Notes under the pieces: model-generated
Told to the model about the DNA's origin: nothing
The model's input: only the letters and a program-made list of their open reading frames with translations
Database searches by the model: none
Program-made: the position numbers and the translations under genes
Shown here: in pieces, positions 3,030 to 64,000 of the stretch
How positions within the stretch are numbered: the stretch's first letter is position 1
Layout: each line of letters starts with the position of its first letter
Origin: Peptoanaerobacter stomatis
Lineage (GTDB): Bacteria; Bacillota; Clostridia; Peptostreptococcales; Filifactoraceae
Assembly (NCBI RefSeq): GCF_000238095.2
Contig: NZ_JH815225.1
Span: 646,724-710,723, forward strand
Length of the DNA: 64,000 nucleotides
Reading direction: 5' to 3'

Positions 3030-3124
3030 TGGCGGGAATATGAAGGAGTCGAACCTCCCGAGGAGTTTTTATATCCCCCTATGATTTTGAAGACCACGAA
3101 ATGCACCGGCACTTACATATTCCC
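3030..3124 (-). tRNA. selC: tRNA-Sec (anticodon UCA)
   Basis: The transcript is 95 nt with an encoded CCA end. It has an 8-bp acceptor stem (GGGAATAT with ATATTCCC), discriminator G, a 5-bp T stem with loop TTCGACT, a long variable arm, and an anticodon loop CTTCAAA that places UCA. The 8+5 acceptor/T geometry and UCA anticodon are specific for selenocysteine tRNA. The organism therefore should read some UGA codons as selenocysteine. The partner genes selA, selB and selD are not in this window. It lies between pepD and ung, same strand, with about 60 bases to the pepD start. Confidence 0.93.
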
Positions 3125-8548: not shown

Positions 8549-9340
8549 TTAAATATTTTTAAAAAAACGTAAAGCGGATTTTTTTGCCTTTTCTATTTTT
8601 GTAGATTCTTTATTTTCTACAGCGCTTGAAGATATCCATTTTTTACCAAATATTGTTTGTGCTGCCTCTACTATAACTCCGCAAGCATATAAGTCTTTTT
8701 CTTCTGTAATACTTTTAGCAAATGCTAATTTTACTTTTTCTTTTAATTCTTCCGGTCGCACTCCATAAAACATCATTTGCATAAGGCTTGTTGCAGACCA
8801 TGCCCTACAAAGAGTATCTTGATCGCAAATCATCCGATGAGTTAGTAAGTCAATTTCTTTTGATGAACCTACCCACCCAAAAGCTATTATAAGTTTACGG
8901 CGCAGAATACTGTTATTTGTATCTAAAAGTGAAACAAGAACAGTAATAAGGCGTTCGCAAAACAATGAATAAAAATCTCTATGTTTTAATTTTGAAAGGA
9001 TTTCCGCTATAAGATAAGCAGTATATATTTTTATTTTTTCATCTTCAATTTCATCTAACTGTTTAAATAAAAATTCTATTCCATTTCTGTCATGTTTTTC
9101 AAAGCCGTTCTCCAAATGTAGCTTTGTATCTTTTTCCCAATCTTTGCAAATAAGCTCATAGTGATATGCTATCTCATTACTTCCGGCTAAATCGGCTATA
9201 AATCCAAGTCTTTTATCAGAATCAAACTCACTTTTTTCTAAATCAAGATATGATTTTTCTAAATCTTTCCTCGTAAGGCTAATGCGATTAACCCTTTCAG
9301 CTTCAATCTCTTGTATAATTTTGTCAGTTGAATCCGGCAT
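8549..9340 (-). CDS. HEAT-like helical repeat protein, unknown function
   Basis: 263 residues, almost all predicted helix. Residues about 90-215 show the alternating hydrophobic pattern of HEAT/ARM-type repeats (for example YTAYLIAEIL, LIIAFGWVG, AWSATSLMQMM). The ATG at 9338-9340 follows GGGGGAAG with good spacing. No catalytic motif or membrane segment was seen. Helical-repeat proteins of this size are common among immunity proteins of polymorphic toxins and as scaffolds. Its neighbour is an NTF2-like immunity-type protein, which favours an orphan immunity role; this is inference from context. Confidence 0.65.
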   Translation of the reverse strand: MPDSTDKIIQEIEAERVNRISLTRKDLEKSYLDLEKSEFDSDKRLGFIADLAGSNEIAYHYELICKDWEKDTKLHLENGFEKHDRNGIEFLFKQLDEIEDEKIKIYTAYLIAEILSKLKHRDFYSLFCERLITVLVSLLDTNNSILRRKLIIAFGWVGSSKEIDLLTHRMICDQDTLCRAWSATSLMQMMFYGVRPEELKEKVKLAFAKSITEEKDLYACGVIVEAAQTIFGKKWISSSAVENKESTKIEKAKKSALRFFKNI

Positions 9341-29441: not shown

Positions 29442-29900
29442 ATGGACACTTATGTGGTTTTTAAAATAAACGAACAAAAATATTGTGTAAATATATTAAC
29501 TATAAAAGAAATTTGCAGCAATAAAGAAGCAACTTTCTTACCAAACACACCGTCATTTATAGAAGGCATTATAAATTTGCGTGGAGAAGTTTTAACCATA
29601 ATAAACCTTTCTAAAAAATTAGGAATTCTTTCCACTACACCATTCCAAGAGCAAAAAATATTGGTGGTTTTAATTGATGAATTACTAATCGGTTTTTTGG
29701 TTGACGAAGTCATAGGTATTATACACACACCTTCGGAAGATGTTAATGATAAACCAAAAATGCTTGAAAATGAAGTGAATTTCATAAACAGCATCATTAA
29801 ATCAGAAGATGAAATGATAATATCTATAGATTTAAAACATATTTTAAATAAAGAAGAGCTGTCAAGTGTAGAACAACTCAATAAAGAGCAAGCAATATGA
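29442..29900 (+). CDS. cheW: CheW-domain scaffold protein
   Basis: 152 residues forming a single CheW domain: VFKINEQKYCVNI (start), IEGIINLRGEVLTIINL (about 42-58, the most conserved stretch) and LLIGFLVDEVIGI (about 83-95). CheW links receptors to the CheA kinase in chemosensory arrays. Here no cheA, receptor or flagellar gene is near; instead its stop overlaps the start of a DegS-like kinase (ATGA), so the two are translationally coupled. It has AAGGAGG upstream. Whether it works with an array elsewhere or with the adjacent kinase is open. Confidence 0.92.
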   Translation: MDTYVVFKINEQKYCVNILTIKEICSNKEATFLPNTPSFIEGIINLRGEVLTIINLSKKLGILSTTPFQEQKILVVLIDELLIGFLVDEVIGIIHTPSEDVNDKPKMLENEVNFINSIIKSEDEMIISIDLKHILNKEELSSVEQLNKEQAI

Positions 29901-31036
29901 TGAGTATAAAAAAACATACAAGCAATATAAATCTTGCTATACAAAATATAATTGACTCCATGCAAAGCGGTAAAGAAGAAATTTTTAATATAACCGAATC
30001 TATTAATAAAGAAAACACAATAATTCAATCTGATATAGTCAAGACTAAAAAAACCATAAGTATTTATACTAAAGAAGTGGAAGATTTAAAAGAGAGTGAA
30101 CTTATCAGCAGAGAAAAACTTTTATTAGTAAGTAAAGACTTCAATCATTACACTCATGAAGATATAAAAAATGCATATGAAGAAGCACTTACGTTGCAAG
30201 AAAAACTGCTTGCAAAAAAAAGCGATGTCACAACAGTTTTACAGACTCTCGAAAATTTAGAAAAAAGAATAGAAAAAAATAAAGAACTCACAGAAAAAGC
30301 AGACAGATTATTAAATAGAATTGAAGTATTAAGCGAATATATAAAAGTAGATGTATCAGATGATGAAGATGATATAAAAGATGCTACCGGAAAATGGATA
30401 CTTTCTCAAGAGAAAGAAAAAAGTAGAATATCAAGAGATATTCATGACGGACCTGCTCAAACATTAGCATCTATAGTTATGAAATCTGATATAATAAAAA
30501 GACTTATAGAAAAGGATTCACCTAAAAATACTATATATAGAGAATTAGAACAACTTAAACACCAACTTAGAAATGCAATAAAAGAAATAAGAAGAATAAT
30601 ATACGACTTAAGGCCGACTTCTTTGGACGAATTAGGACTTATTCCAAGTATACAAGGGCTTATAGCCAAAGCAAAAGAAGATTATGATATAAATTTCAAT
30701 TTATCTACAAGAAAAAATGATCCAATCAAAAGTTCTACTACAAAAATAATATGTTTTAGAGTTTTACAAGAATCAATAAATAATATTTTAAAGCATTCTA
30801 ACGCTAAAAATGTAGATATAAACATATCTATCGGTTCTAAAACAATAATATTGAAAGTAGAAGATGATGGAATAGGTTTTAATATTGAAGATATTGACTC
30901 TTCAAAATCATTTGGGCTTTCATCTCTTAAAGAAAGAATTTTGTTAGCTGAAGGAGAAGTAAAGATACTATCTAAGCCCAATAACGGAACACGACTCGAA
31001 ATAAAAATACCAAACAAGGAGGATATATATGCATAA
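29897..31036 (+). CDS. degS: DegS-type cytoplasmic sensor histidine kinase
   Basis: 379 residues, without membrane segments. The first 160 residues are long coiled coil like the DegS sensor domain. HisKA_3 motif SRDIHDGPAQTL carries the phospho-accepting His183; the N-box LQESINNILKHSNA, DDGIGF and GLSSLKERI motifs complete the ATPase. It should phosphorylate the response regulator encoded next, whose ATG overlaps its end by eight bases. The gene starts four bases inside cheW. DegS homologues monitor cytoplasmic or flagellar state and often act as phosphatases too; the signal here is unknown. Confidence 0.92.
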   Translation: MMSIKKHTSNINLAIQNIIDSMQSGKEEIFNITESINKENTIIQSDIVKTKKTISIYTKEVEDLKESELISREKLLLVSKDFNHYTHEDIKNAYEEALTLQEKLLAKKSDVTTVLQTLENLEKRIEKNKELTEKADRLLNRIEVLSEYIKVDVSDDEDDIKDATGKWILSQEKEKSRISRDIHDGPAQTLASIVMKSDIIKRLIEKDSPKNTIYRELEQLKHQLRNAIKEIRRIIYDLRPTSLDELGLIPSIQGLIAKAKEDYDINFNLSTRKNDPIKSSTTKIICFRVLQESINNILKHSNAKNVDINISIGSKTIILKVEDDGIGFNIEDIDSSKSFGLSSLKERILLAEGEVKILSKPNNGTRLEIKIPNKEDIYA

Positions 31037-31691
31037 TGACAGAATAAGAGTGATGATCGCAGATGATCATGAGCTTATAAGAGAGGGAATATCAAGAATA
31101 TTAGATATGGAAAATGATATAGAAGTGGTCTGCAAAGCAAAATCAGGTCCAGAAGCAATAGAATCACTAAAAAAATGTAAAGTTGATGTTATACTTTTAG
31201 ATATAAATATGCCTGATATGACAGGTATAGAAATACTTAAAAAACTTAAATCATCACATTCAAAACCAAAAATAATAATGCTTACAGTATATGATGACGT
31301 AGAATATGTATCACAAAGCGTCAGCTTAGGAGCAGACGGATATGTATTAAAAGATTCAGATTCTGAAACTTTGATAAAAACAATAAAAATAGTAAACTCA
31401 GGAGGCAGTTATATACAGCCTACCCTTGCTACAAAGTTGATAAAACACATAACAAAAGAAAAACAAGCATATAAAGAGGAAGTAGACGCTGTTCAATCTC
31501 TAACGAGAAAGGAAATAGTAGTTGTAAAAGCTATAGCTAACGGATTAAGTAACAAAGGAATCTCAGAAAAACTTAAGATAAGCGAAAAAACAGTGAAAAA
31601 CCACGTATCAAGCATATTAAAAAAATTGGAATTGCAAGATAGAACTCAAGTAGCCATATATGCAATAAAAAATAAAATAGTTGAATTATAA
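31029..31691 (+). CDS. degU: DegU-type (NarL/LuxR) response regulator
   Basis: 220 residues. Receiver domain (1-125) with acidic pair ADDH (11-14), phospho-acceptor Asp58 in LLDINMPD, Thr in MLTVYD and Lys in VLKDSD. The C-terminal LuxR-type HTH (about 150-215) contains LTRKEIVVVKAIANGLSNK and SEKTVKNHVSSILKKL. This is the cognate partner of the kinase encoded immediately upstream. A hairpin terminator follows. It would control transcription; targets cannot be told from the window. Confidence 0.95.
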   Translation: MHNDRIRVMIADDHELIREGISRILDMENDIEVVCKAKSGPEAIESLKKCKVDVILLDINMPDMTGIEILKKLKSSHSKPKIIMLTVYDDVEYVSQSVSLGADGYVLKDSDSETLIKTIKIVNSGGSYIQPTLATKLIKHITKEKQAYKEEVDAVQSLTRKEIVVVKAIANGLSNKGISEKLKISEKTVKNHVSSILKKLELQDRTQVAIYAIKNKIVEL

Positions 31692-33095: not shown

Positions 33096-33678
33096 AAACT
33101 CCTCCTAAAAATAATTTTATGATAACGATTTAAAAATATTTTTATTACATTATAATCTATTTTATTTTTATTTTCAACAAAAATAAAATAGATTATTTTC
33201 CTTATAATTAAGAATATCATTATATTTCATTAATATTTCACCATTTTAGTATAGTTATTTGTTTTAAAAAAACTTTTTAAATTTCATTTTGTAAATATAT
33301 TATTATCTGAATAAACATATATATTTTTAATATTATGCTAAAATATATTTTAATACAAATTTCTATTATCAAAGTATCAGAAATAGATTGTTTTATTTTT
33401 ATGGAATGATAGTATAAATCGTATTATTTATGAACAATTAGTATCATTTATTGCAAAAATAACAGCAAAACAACCAATAATTTTTATTTTTTTTAATAAT
33501 GCTTTACAAATATGTTTGTAACCATTATAATATCTTATATAGAAAAAGAATTTTATTTAAAATATAAAAATAAAAGTTTATTGTTTAAAACAACTTCTTA
33601 TTGATTAGCTGACTATTTAAAATTATAATTATATACATATAAGCTGTTATTTTAAATTTTTTTAGGAGTGTATTTATT
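33096..33678. other. Divergent intergenic region, AT-rich
   Basis: 580 bases between the minus-strand CoA-transferase and the plus-strand HD-GYP pair. It holds the promoters of both and the large palindrome at 33152-33196. Otherwise very AT-rich with no gene or RNA recognised. Confidence 0.6.
33152..33196. repeat. Perfect 18-bp inverted repeat with 9-base loop
   Basis: Left arm 33152-33169 is ATAATCTATTTTATTTTT; right arm 33179-33196 is its exact reverse complement; loop ATTTTCAAC. It lies 57-101 bases before the CoA-transferase start. It could be a transcription-factor site, a leader hairpin or a weak terminator. Confidence 0.85.
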
Positions 33679-34698
33679 ATGAGCAACATATCTGTAAATA
33701 AGTTAGAGAGAGGAATGATTATAGATAGCGATATATTTAGTAAAAGAGGCTCGCTATTATTGTACAAAGGTTTTAAGATAGAAAATCCTGATTTAGTTTC
33801 AATCGTACTTCGTAGAAACGGCATAAATTCTGTAATGATAAAAGATGATGAAACTCAAGCTTCTTCAGCCGTAAAAGAATCAGATAGAATTTCTCAAAAG
33901 ATATTGCAAGAAGTCGCAGCTTTTAAAGAAGAATTTAACAAAATAGTTGAAGACTTGGAAGAAGACATAGAAAATTTCACTCAAACTAAAGACATCTCAA
34001 AAATAAGAGAATTGGATAGAGGCGCCGAGCTTGCAAAAGAATCCGAATCATCTGTACTGACTATATTCCAATTAGTTGAAAAAATAAAAAATGACGGTTC
34101 AAATAAATATTCCGATATACTTCAAGTATCATTAATATCTTATTCAATAGGAAAATGGATAGATTTAGATGATGTTCAATTAAAAGAACTTTCTGAAGCA
34201 TCTATGCTAAGCTCTATTTTTGCACTTAGCGATGTCGATTATGAGAATATACATGAAATAAAAGGTGCAGATACTGTTTCTAAAGAAGTTTTACAATCTG
34301 CCATAACGTCAAGAGAAAGAAATGACGGTTCAGGTCCTATGGGACTTACAAACGAACAAATACCTATATATGCAAAAATTATAGCTATATCTGAAATATT
34401 CTATGCACTTACTACCAACAACGAATTCTATGAAAGAATGTCAGTTTTTGATGCTCTAAAAATAATGCAAAGCGAATATATGTCTTTATTAGATACAAGA
34501 ATACTATATATATTCCTTCATAAAGTGGCTAATAAGTATATAGGTTCAACTGTAAGATTATCAGATGGAACAAGCGGAGTAATTGTTTTCGTTCCTGAAA
34601 ATGAAGTAGTGCTTCCTTTTATCAAAACAGGCGAAGGTCAGATAATAAACCTACAAAGCAGTCAATATAAAAATAACAAGATAATTGAAATTTTATAA
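33679..34698 (+). CDS. HD-GYP-related protein with lost catalytic residues
   Basis: 339 residues. It aligns end to end with the next gene product (shared N-terminal GMIIDxDI, C-terminal YIGSTVRLSDGTSGVI), so the two are tandem paralogues. Where the HD-GYP domain needs HD, this protein has SS (about 178-179); HHER is replaced by TSRER (210-214) and GYP by GPM (219-221). All expected metal ligands appear lost, so it is probably a non-catalytic binding or regulatory protein rather than a c-di-GMP phosphodiesterase. GGAG precedes the ATG. The downstream gene starts 31 bases after its stop. Confidence 0.82.
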   Translation: MSNISVNKLERGMIIDSDIFSKRGSLLLYKGFKIENPDLVSIVLRRNGINSVMIKDDETQASSAVKESDRISQKILQEVAAFKEEFNKIVEDLEEDIENFTQTKDISKIRELDRGAELAKESESSVLTIFQLVEKIKNDGSNKYSDILQVSLISYSIGKWIDLDDVQLKELSEASMLSSIFALSDVDYENIHEIKGADTVSKEVLQSAITSRERNDGSGPMGLTNEQIPIYAKIIAISEIFYALTTNNEFYERMSVFDALKIMQSEYMSLLDTRILYIFLHKVANKYIGSTVRLSDGTSGVIVFVPENEVVLPFIKTGEGQIINLQSSQYKNNKIIEIL

Positions 34699-34729
34699 AA
34701 ATATGTCTTTACTAAGGAGAGTTAATTAG

Positions 34730-35818
34730 ATGAGAATTTCTATAGATGACATTAAAAATAATATGATCATTGACGAGGATATATATAATTCTAACGGTAG
34801 ACTTATTTTATCAAAAGGTTTATCAGTTTCTGACGAAAATTTTATCAAAGATTTATTGAAAAGAAATGCTATTAATAAAATAAAAGTGTTAATGCTTTTT
34901 GACATTGCCAAAGAGGAGAATGAACAGGAGGACGTAAATGTTCCTTTTGAAGTAATAAAAGAGCAAGAAATAGAAAGTTTTATGACGGATTTCAATAATG
35001 TTGTAAATAGTTTTGAAAAAGAAATCATAAGCACTATTTCAGGTACTGGTAACGCAAAAAGCCTTGAAAATATTCTATCAGAGACGATAAAAACCAATTC
35101 CGGTAAAAATACCAACGTATTCCAATTGCTACAAAAGTTCAAAAACTCGGATGATTTGACATTTGTACACTGTAATGCTGTGTCTCTAACAGTGCATACT
35201 ATCGGTAAATGGATGAAATTATCAGAGAGTGATTTAAAAGATTTATCTCTCGCCGGTCTGCTTTTTGACGTAGGAAAATATGCTCTATCAAAAGATTTGC
35301 TCAGAAAAACTACACCCTTAACTGAGTTTGAAATTGAAGTTATAAGATCTCACGTAGAAAAATCATTAGAAATATTAAAACCTTATGACTTGAATGACAA
35401 TATAATAGATGCGATAAAATATCACCACGAAAGATGTGATGGAAGTGGGTATCCTTATGGTCTAAAAGGTGATGAAATACCGCTTTTAGCAAGGATATTA
35501 GCTCTTGCAGATGTGTTTGTAGCACTAACTTCAATGAGACCTTATAGAAATAAAATGACACCATTTGCAGCTGTAAAATTACTTGAAACAGATTTTATGC
35601 AGAAACTTGACATAGTTATACTATCTGATTTTATCAACAAGATAGCATCTAACTATATAGGAGCAGAGCTTAGATTATCTGACGGTAATAAAGGTGAAAT
35701 AATATTTATAAATGCTAATGCACCGTTAAGACCTATAGTAAAATTAAAACCGACAGGAGATTTATTGGATTTGAGCTCAAAGGCAAATCATGATATAGAA
35801 ATTGAAGAATTTTTCTAA
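34730..35818 (+). CDS. HD-GYP domain protein (altered HD motif)
   Basis: 362 residues. Residues 1-60 form the small N-terminal domain also present in its tandem neighbour. The HD-GYP domain (about 130-300) has His208, HHERCDGSGYP (232-242, with both His and GYP) and DVFVALTSMRPY, but the HD pair is Phe179-Asp180 (LLFDVGK instead of LLHDIGK). HD-GYP enzymes degrade cyclic di-GMP with a metal centre; loss of one His ligand could lower or abolish activity. AGGAG precedes the ATG. A strong terminator ends this two-gene operon. Confidence 0.88.
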   Translation: MRISIDDIKNNMIIDEDIYNSNGRLILSKGLSVSDENFIKDLLKRNAINKIKVLMLFDIAKEENEQEDVNVPFEVIKEQEIESFMTDFNNVVNSFEKEIISTISGTGNAKSLENILSETIKTNSGKNTNVFQLLQKFKNSDDLTFVHCNAVSLTVHTIGKWMKLSESDLKDLSLAGLLFDVGKYALSKDLLRKTTPLTEFEIEVIRSHVEKSLEILKPYDLNDNIIDAIKYHHERCDGSGYPYGLKGDEIPLLARILALADVFVALTSMRPYRNKMTPFAAVKLLETDFMQKLDIVILSDFINKIASNYIGAELRLSDGNKGEIIFINANAPLRPIVKLKPTGDLLDLSSKANHDIEIEEFF

Positions 35819-35840: not shown

Positions 35841-35874
35841 AAAATACGATAGATGAAAATCTATCGTATTTTTT
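35841..35874 (+). terminator. Terminator of the HD-GYP pair
   Basis: Perfect 12-bp arms AAAATACGATAG / CTATCGTATTTT with loop ATGAAAAT and T-run, 22 bases after the stop. Confidence 0.9.
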
Positions 35875-38987: not shown

Positions 38988-39054
38988 ATTTTCTCCTTGT
39001 AATAATTTTTCAAATTTTTACTATATTCGGAGAAGTGACTCAATACATTTTTTG

Positions 39055-39229
39055 TTAAAATTTATAAAGATAAATTTCTTTTTGTTATATATTTTTAGAC
39101 TGCCACAAGCCTTTGGAATACCCGCCGAGTCTTTCGATAATTCCAATCCTCGTCAATAATAAACTCTGCATTAAAAAAGTAAAATTTTTTATATTTTTAA
39201 TAATACACAGAGATTAATTATCCTGGCGC
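39055..39229 (-). ncRNA. glmS ribozyme (glucosamine-6-phosphate-activated self-cleaving RNA)
   Basis: On the minus strand the RNA starts AGCGCC, with self-cleavage expected between A (39230) and G (39229). The conserved core GACGAGGAT, TTATCGA and TCGGCGGG follows in the correct order. CTCTG/CAGAG pairs in P1-P2, P3 is AGGCT/AGTCT, and P4 is a perfect 8-bp stem AAATTTAT/ATAAATTT with loop CTTT (39058-39077). It is directly upstream of glmS. Identification is by core sequence and pairing, so confidence is high. Confidence 0.93.
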
Positions 39230-39330
39230 TTGACTTAATACCAAAACTCTATTTTACAGTAAATTGAGTTATTATAAAACTCATTTAAGATTCAGTATAT
39301 AATATTTTCTCCAAATATTAAAACAGTTAA

Positions 39331-62376: not shown

Positions 62377-62444
62377 AGTAACTATAGCAATTTTTATTTT
62401 ATAAAATTGTAATTTTAATGATTTTATGGAAGGTAAATAATTAT

Positions 62445-64000
62445 ATGTATGAAAATATTAAAAAAACTGAATTCAGTAATATTTCTGAAAATAACGATGA
62501 TTCTCTGAATAGTTTTTTTCTTAAATACCCTGACTTTTCTTTCATTCATAATATGCTTCCTTGTGGAATATTCCGCTGCAAAAATGATAAAGATCTCACT
62601 CTTACATATATGAATGACGGTTTTTTGAGATTGACTGAATATACACGCGAAGAATTAATTAGATTATACAACAACAGTTTTGCAAGTATAATATATTCCG
62701 AAGATTTACAAAACGTTGTAACAGAATCTATGAATATTAAACCTTCAAGCATAGATATAGATATGGAATTTAGAATTATAACTAAATCAGGCAAACTCGT
62801 ATGGGTACTAAGCAAAGGTATGATATGTCAATGTTCCAGTAATGAATATGAATATTGCAGTGCGCTTGTAGATATAACTTATCAAAAAAAAGCTATGCGT
62901 TTGCTTACGAAAAAAGCCGAACATGACGGACTTACAAATCTATACAACAGAGTTACTACTCAAATTCTTATAGATAATTATTTAAAATATGAAGTAGATA
63001 ACTCAAAAGCGGTATTTTTTATCCTTGATATTGATAATTTTAAAACAATAAATGACACATATGGTCATCCTTATGCTGATACCATATTAGTAGATATAGC
63101 CAAATCTCTACGCTCCTTATACAGAAGTACTGACATATTGTGTAGAGTCGGCGGAGATGAAATGATTGTATTTCTTAAAGATATTCAATCTAAAGATATA
63201 GCTATGGATAAAGCCAATGATTTAATAAAATCAATCGCTGAAATTTCAAAAAGGCGTTCTACAGGCTTACCGATAACTTGCAGTATAGGTGTATCACTAT
63301 ATCCAAATGACGGAAAAACTTTTGATGACCTATATAAAAAAGCTGACACAGCTTTATATTATGCCAAAGAAGAAGGAAAAGGACAAATATTTTTTTACGA
63401 TGCTCTACCAAAAACATATCACTATTTGAATGCTGAAACTAAACATACACATATAGATTCAAAGAATATGGAGCCTGAAACTGAGGGAGATTGGCTACTT
63501 TGGTATTCGTTCAATCTTTTAAACGATTCTGATGATATACCCGGTGCCATAAATTTGATATTATCATTACTCGGTCAAAAAACCGGAGTAGACAGAGTAT
63601 ATATATTTGAATATGCAGAAAATCACACGAGGTTTAGAAACACGTTTGAATGGTGTAATGAAGGTATAGACTCTGAAATGGAAAATCTTCAAGCTCTTAC
63701 TATTGATAGTGTAAAAGCTATATTCGATAAGTTTGATGAAACAAACGGCCTATTATATTGTAAAGATATTGAAGAATTTTATCCTGATCCTATATACTAT
63801 GTATTAAAACCTCAAAATATAACCTCCGTACTCCAATGTGAGCTTAAAAACGGCGGTCAAAGATTCGGTATGCTCGGCTTCGATGAATGTCACGGCAAAA
63901 AATATTGGAGTTTAAAATTAGTGGACTTGCTGATAAAATTTTCCCATCTTATAAGTGTATATCTTTCAAATTACAGACTAAAACAATATATACAAATGGA
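62445..64000 (+). CDS. PAS-GGDEF diguanylate cyclase (3' end outside window)
   Basis: At least 518 residues; open to the window edge. A PAS/PAC sensor (about 30-145) is followed by a GGDEF domain (about 155-310) with the active motif GGDEM (236-240), HDGLTNLYNR start, DIDNFKTINDTYGH and the inhibitory I-site RSTD (227-230) five residues before GGDEM. A further domain after about residue 330 resembles a GAF sensor (GVDRVYIFEYAEN). It would make cyclic di-GMP from GTP with product inhibition. GGAAGG precedes the ATG. It runs divergently from groESL and is possibly linked to the HD-GYP-related proteins at 33.7-35.8 kb. Confidence 0.92.
   Translation, partial: MYENIKKTEFSNISENNDDSLNSFFLKYPDFSFIHNMLPCGIFRCKNDKDLTLTYMNDGFLRLTEYTREELIRLYNNSFASIIYSEDLQNVVTESMNIKPSSIDIDMEFRIITKSGKLVWVLSKGMICQCSSNEYEYCSALVDITYQKKAMRLLTKKAEHDGLTNLYNRVTTQILIDNYLKYEVDNSKAVFFILDIDNFKTINDTYGHPYADTILVDIAKSLRSLYRSTDILCRVGGDEMIVFLKDIQSKDIAMDKANDLIKSIAEISKRRSTGLPITCSIGVSLYPNDGKTFDDLYKKADTALYYAKEEGKGQIFFYDALPKTYHYLNAETKHTHIDSKNMEPETEGDWLLWYSFNLLNDSDDIPGAINLILSLLGQKTGVDRVYIFEYAENHTRFRNTFEWCNEGIDSEMENLQALTIDSVKAIFDKFDETNGLLYCKDIEEFYPDPIYYVLKPQNITSVLQCELKNGGQRFGMLGFDECHGKKYWSLKLVDLLIKFSHLISVYLSNYRLKQYIQM

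Follow-up and report, generated by a model that had tools for sequence, protein, structure and literature searches.

Two degenerate HD-GYP paralogues of Peptoanaerobacter stomatis: a candidate non-hydrolysing dinucleotide receptor and its possible partner

Annotation usually labels HD-GYP genes as phosphodiesterases of c-di-GMP. For the enzyme PmGH, alanine substitution of either H221, the histidine of the HD dyad, or D308 is reported to abolish activity, substitutions in the GYP region do not, the E185 ligand is absent anyway from HD-GYP proteins outside the tri-iron group, and c-di-GMP was seen bound when only the G-site iron was present (PMC4159591). VCA0681 carries Gln at D308 and is nevertheless described as active, so that D308 is dispensable there, and VC1087 and VCA0895 of V. 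cholerae, whose HD motif is not intact, are reported to be inactive (PMC4212101). Other members of the family have been described as inactive, including Bd1817 of Bdellovibrio (3tm8), a relative in which the GYP tyrosine is absent (PMC4159591); PA2572 of Pseudomonas aeruginosa, a YN-GYP protein for which no activity was detectable in the reported work and which regulates motility and virulence and makes a REC-mediated protein contact (PMC3411652); and DvhD of Desulfovibrio vulgaris (PDB 9rbz and 9rc0), a degenerate HD-GYP protein that is reported to bind c-di-GMP without hydrolysis or metal and to signal (PMC13090378). Inactive HD-GYP proteins (the last three, VC1087, VCA0895 and three from Leptospira) are therefore already known from these accounts, as are pairs with a degenerate member. 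Searches of open-access papers listed no account of a clade, confined to one order, in which just the HD histidine is missing, a weak negative.

The window analysed here is a stretch of 64,000 nt of Peptoanaerobacter stomatis (GCF_000238095.2, NZ_JH815225.1, positions 646,724–710,723, forward strand) containing two HD-GYP genes, A and B, in an operon-like layout (Table 1). Both frames are intact and lie on the same strand, 31 bp apart. The encoded proteins are 31% identical and share an architecture of a short N-terminal domain with a helical linker, an HD-GYP region and a C-terminal beta domain. Both belong to the HD-GYP domain family, scoring 117.7 (B) and 43.1 bits (A) against Pfam HD_5 (cut-off 27.2 bits), with the match of A covering only the C-terminal half of the domain. 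Sigma-70-like promoter matches are not significantly enriched here (30 found versus 23.5 expected).

Table 1. Features of the A–B locus, in window coordinates
Feature	Position	Strand	Remarks
Gene A, 339-aa HD-GYP pseudo-enzyme	33679..34698	+	Ligands all replaced or deleted, GYP Tyr missing
Gene B, HD-GYP protein of 362 aa lacking the HD histidine	34730..35818	+	Member of an order-wide non-His clade
Terminator-like hairpin 3' of B	35841..35872	bidirectional	14 base pairs; each strand has a T tract
Best sigma-70-like promoter match 5' of A	33503..33531	+	11/12 positions
A Gly219-Pro220, remnant of GYP, Tyr deleted	34333..34338	+	Alignment
B Phe179 codon (ttt) at PmGH H221; Asp180 next	35264..35266	+	Alignment to PmGH
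B His232-His233 kept (PmGH H276, H277)	35423..35428	+	Alignment to PmGH
B Gly240-Tyr241-Pro242 (GYP) kept	35447..35455	+	Alignment to PmGH
B Val264 codon (gta) at PmGH D308	35519..35521	+	Second residue that PmGH activity needs

Elsewhere in the window, a DegS-like sensor kinase and a LuxR-type response regulator are encoded as a pair upstream of A (29897–31691), separated from it by a gene on the opposite strand that we take to be CoA-transferase-like, and a PAS-GGDEF-like protein (62418–63998), which scored 144.7 bits for GGDEF when the genome was searched, runs off the window end. An Rfam search of the window returned only a tRNA-Sec (3030–3124) and a glmS ribozyme (39032–39241, upstream of a glmS-like gene), with no known RNA element near A or B; control of the pair by a c-di-GMP riboswitch was rejected, as the window contains no such match.

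Residues of A and B are given here as mapped to PmGH numbering. B keeps H189 (H147 in B), D222 (D180), K225 (K183), H250 (H208), H276 (H232), H277 (H233) and D305 (D261), together with the G-Y-P motif (240–242) and R314 (R270). Six of the seven shared metal ligands are therefore present and the HD histidine is the sole shared ligand lost. The original prediction that B retains HH and GYP and carries Phe179 in place of the HD histidine is borne out by the alignment to PmGH, but it missed a second loss, Val264 at the D308 position. E185 is not kept either, its position being occupied by L143. The canonical HD dyad is absent from both proteins, reading Phe179-Asp180 in B and Ser-Ser in A. Under a putative mapping to the canonical site of DvhD, B retains four of eight residues (Y241, R270, Y272 and L197), with L266 for Met, D288 for Glu, and the Lys and Tyr replaced by I202 and L143. 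Because D308 is also absent, the earlier description of B as an atypical enzyme is probably wrong. The direction of the accompanying claim, that the pair is not a simple phosphodiesterase, is supported, since A is a pseudo-enzyme by sequence, an ordinary phosphodiesterase is an unlikely role for B, and the pair is kept in all five genomes that carry such genes.

Degeneration has gone much further in A, where all seven shared metal ligands are gone. The residues at H189, H221, D222, K225, H276, H277 and D305 are D, S, S, A, S, R and E, a deletion spans the H250 segment, and GYP is without its Tyr. An alternative alignment places His192 of A in the H250 column, but this histidine is not conserved among the other A copies. 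These losses support the view of A as a pseudo-enzyme, with no metal ligand and no GYP tyrosine; the stronger statement that HD, HH and GYP residues are lacking entirely goes too far, as a DGSG stretch and the Gly and Pro of GYP are still present (residues 216–220). The A copies of the sister genus have lost fewer residues than those of the window's genus and retain a complete GYP. Across five genomes of the family, mean identity among A proteins is 71% in the N-terminal domain, 70% in the C-terminal domain and 51% in the core, and the corresponding values for B are 51%, 49% and 57%. The flanking domains of A are thus better conserved than its core, so that constraint no longer centres on the catalytic region, as would suit a scaffold or partner protein. 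For the N-terminal domain of A (window 33679–33849, model residues 1–57), structural comparison gave a match to a domain of MoeA (2nqm; Z 8.0, rmsd 1.3, 54 aligned).

Absence of the HD histidine is widespread in the order. A profile, A1, was built from 30 B-like proteins, chosen because they lack the histidine out of 38 regions hand-picked among the top matches of a search of 148 genomes of the order; all 30 rows match Pfam HD_5. The profile was run on 393 sampled genomes of the order with at most five candidates scored per genome, so that the counts are lower bounds, and at least 46 genes in at least 38 of these genomes reach 380 bits, the highest score below that being 348. The histidine is absent from 39 of the 46 found, in seven families (12 in f3, six each in f4 and f11, five each in f1 and f5, three in f8 and two in f7), and is replaced by Ile (17), Ser (9), Thr (4), Leu (4), Phe (2), Ala (2) or Met (1). 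The contrast between 0/39 for the histidine and 39/39 for the aspartate that follows it is more than chance. H189, D222, H276 and G-Y-P are likewise found in 39/39, H250, H277, D305 and K225 in 38/39 and R314 in 32/39, and D308 is retained in 2/39; the RPY residues that contact c-di-GMP are missing from each of the six f11 members. The other seven of the 46 (five in f5, two in f7) keep the histidine, all with Asn at D308. The six f4 genes are the only members first discovered through the profile, and all six are without the histidine. Fourteen rows fall below 380 bits, and the seven of these that were read each have both the histidine and D308.

Outside the order the pattern is different. In a search of 291 genomes of the class, no locus outside the order scores above 326 bits. 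Once three in-order loci are excluded, the 27 best loci all have the histidine, 26 of them with D308 and one with Glu in its place. Among 398 genomes of the phylum, only the window's own gene exceeds 323 bits. A search for named relatives gave seven loci, all ordinary or distant HD proteins. Within the window's family, the orthologues of B from five genomes have F, F, S, A and S at the H221 position. As the histidine is absent from all five and from all 39 clade members, Phe179 as a strain-specific change is ruled out.

A tree of 74 sequences, calculated with the H221 and D308 columns left out, unites the 39 proteins, the seven His-bearing copies and five A proteins in one clade (UFBoot 95). 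Within it, A groups with the most degenerate f4 copy (in G475) at UFBoot 100, and both group with the B of the family at 100; on this topology, A arose within this clade. That f4 copy, a second one (L188, G475:C73, HD-GYP gene at 9251), has lost H250, H277 and D305 too. Its grouping with A implies that the A type may predate the window's family. The position of the His-bearing copies within the clade is weakly supported (70 and 84), so that regain of the histidine and several losses are indistinguishable. Three f2 proteins from another clade of the same order (L122, L126 and L127; genomes G129, G086 and G106) have Phe-Asp with D308 kept, which represents a separate, independent loss of the same histidine.

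The A–B pair is present in 5/5 genomes of the two genera that carry such genes, with open frames and 44–73% identity, and the other six of 11 family genomes have neither gene. In one genus (g1), A and B lie on one strand with gaps of 31, 12 and 359 bp; in the other (g2) they are not adjacent, with three and one ORFs between them. No conserved neighbours of the pair were found across the five family genomes, where the flanking genes differ, except for an MCP-like gene that flanks the pair in both g2 genomes. The original view of tandem paralogues holds for the window, where the two genes are adjacent, but not more widely, as the B orthologue stands alone in most genomes read, so that the pair cannot be regarded as the basic unit. 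Of 33 loci, 14 (in f3, f7 and f8) have the B orthologue directly downstream of metG and tatD, with a yabE-like gene further on; in the window's family the B-type gene has moved and stands with A. Among the gene names used for the synteny clusters, Pfam checks covered metG, tatD, yabE (DUF348/G5/3D) and a single spmA-like representative (Gate), and we assume that rsmI, cca, pncB, spmA/B, rnmV, ksgA and yabG are correctly named. The His-bearing copy of f5 adjoins a yabE-like gene in 4/4 loci read, one of which also has tatD and metG immediately upstream, and the non-His copy of f5 has a PAS-GGDEF gene just upstream in 5/5 loci. In f7, non-His and His copies are in tandem in 2/2 genomes. Two such f5 loci are L092:10011–12332 (minus strand) and L119:6752–8965 (plus strand); in genome G036 the PAS-GGDEF protein is fused to a nitroreductase-like domain (Pfam E 7.6e-15), and in G025 a separate 190-aa ORF between the PAS-GGDEF and non-His genes probably encodes the same domain.

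The window's genome has 16 GGDEF matches, 15 of them above the cut-off, six EAL matches (one weak) and one PilZ match; one c-di-GMP-I riboswitch above the cut-off was found in it and none in two sister species. Across the three genomes of the genus there are seven HD_5 matches, comprising three A, three B and one degenerate PAS-GGDEF-HD fusion, and the same search found no canonical HD-GYP protein, though A and B are kept. The fusion, on contig C2 of the window's genome (L003:1459–3276, minus strand), is a 5TM/PAS/GGDEF protein with a third, equally degenerate HD-GYP end, in which Tyr stands at H221, Phe-Met replaces HH and GYP is absent.

Structure predictions with AlphaFold2 gave a mean pLDDT of 64.4 for B, with a confident core at residues ~140–300 and poor N- and C-terminal domains (pLDDT <50), and of 78.1 for A. 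The top solved match by VIA-align is, for both models, DvhD with bound c-di-GMP (B, 9rbz: Z 23.0, rmsd 3.7, 206 aligned; A: Z 14.5, rmsd 3.5, 165 aligned); PmGH comes next (Z 20.1 for B and 13.8 for A). In Foldseek the leading structure is DvhD for B (4.3e-12) but Bd1817 for A (1.5e-5). Both proteins are thus predicted to have the HD-GYP fold, which is unsurprising and not independent of sequence, since the input alignment contained canonical HD-GYP rows.

As A and B have lost catalytic residues, and this loss is common to relatives in several families, they probably sense a signal rather than destroy it. We slightly favour a reading in which B is a non-hydrolysing dinucleotide receptor and A is its paralogous partner. 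The B clade, made up of stand-alone HD-GYP proteins, has lost the HD histidine and, with few exceptions, D308 as well, but keeps its remaining metal ligands and the nucleotide-binding loop of GYP. B would bind c-di-GMP, or a related molecule such as pGpG, in what was the active site, with a reduced metal site and without cleavage, and would relay its bound state via the domains at either end and the long linker of helices. HD-GYP proteins dimerise through stalk helices. A, as a duplicate with its nucleotide site lost and its flanking domains strongly conserved, would pair with B and serve as the output or scaffold half. The receptor role is suggested by the binding of c-di-GMP by DvhD without metal ligands and by PmGH with the G-site iron alone, and by the four DvhD-site residues that B putatively keeps. 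However, six retained metal ligands are odd for a pure receptor, as DvhD is reported to need no metal, and the activity described for VCA0681 indicates that loss of D308 need not be decisive; the lack of RPY residues means that the role may not hold in f11, and the separation of A and B in genus g2 argues against the pair.

The retained ligands could instead mean that B is still an enzyme, with an altered metal set, that cleaves c-di-GMP slowly or acts on another substrate (pGpG, another cyclic dinucleotide or a phosphomonoester), which we consider quite improbable. H189, D222, H250, H276, H277, D305 and K225, each in 38 or 39 of the 39 members across seven families, do look like a selected metal site, VCA0681 is reported to be active without D308 (PMC4212101), and mononuclear HD domains can be phosphomonoesterases, as the PmGH paper recalls (PMC4159591). 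On the other hand, the H221A variant of PmGH is described as dead, VC1087 and VCA0895 as inactive without an intact HD motif (PMC4159591, PMC4212101), and the residues that replace the histidine in the clade include no other usual metal ligand. It is unlikely, if less so, that the pair is a protein–protein module with no nucleotide ligand, using the HD-GYP fold as a scaffold as proposed for PA2572, which is reported to show no detectable activity yet to be regulatory, with a REC-mediated protein contact (PMC3411652). Such a module would suit the loss of the nucleotide site in A and of the RPY contact residues in six of the 39 clade members (f11), but invariant G-Y-P, and R314 in 32/39, would be unexpected in the B clade without a bound nucleotide. 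That both genes are simply decaying into pseudogenes is very improbable: the greater degeneration of A in the window's genus than in its sister genus points that way, but both frames are open in every carrying genome, a single ligand is hit with its neighbours spared in 39 genes, and the flanking domains of A are ~70% identical.

A more far-reaching form of the receptor reading, which we hold to be doubtful, is that the B clade constitutes a class of its own among second-messenger readers, fixed within a single order. The change from enzyme to receptor would have come about by losing one ligand (plus D308), with the remaining metal centre kept as a structural or redox-sensitive ligand clamp. 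In the window's family the result would be a reader of two proteins, with nucleotide-blind A as obligate partner and HD-GYP catalysis wholly replaced. As the clade carries a substitution that is lethal to the model enzyme, genome-based counts of phosphodiesterases are probably wrong in this order. The proteins also form a natural series, with one ligand gone (B), all gone (A), or the histidine present with Asn308 (f5 and f7 copies), which lets one ask by what steps an enzyme turns into a receptor and what ligands are really required at the nucleotide site.

Among pairs, the closest parallels are hdgA/hdgB of Streptomyces, which have neighbouring locus numbers and in which one member is described as canonical and the other as lacking the GYP residues (PMC6205966), and LIC_10138/LIC_10139 of Leptospira, also with neighbouring locus numbers and a changed HD histidine, which differ from A–B in that both are reported to be without metal and nucleotide residues (PMC12943098). 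Both pairs are likened to A–B by locus numbers and residues, not by homology. PA2572, VC1087 and VCA0895 resemble B in having no intact HD dyad, with no activity detected in the reports on those three, but PA2572 is described as having lost both dyad residues and possessing a REC domain, whereas B loses one residue. Bd1817 resembles A in having no GYP tyrosine and matches the models in fold; it is reported to keep a di-iron centre and a closed lid, whereas A has no metal ligands and B retains the tyrosine. PmGH (Persephonella marina, 4mcw) shares with B the fold, GYP and the ligand set except H221 and E185, but is an active tri-iron phosphodiesterase, whereas B is without H221, D308 and E185. 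Under the putative mapping, DvhD has in common with B the GYP tyrosine, the RPY arginine and tyrosine and one site (clamp) leucine. It differs in being, as described, a metal-free transmembrane PAS/HD-GYP protein in which SQ stands for HD and MN for HH (PMC13090378), whereas B is soluble by its domain make-up, keeps HH and has lost only the HD histidine among the shared ligands.
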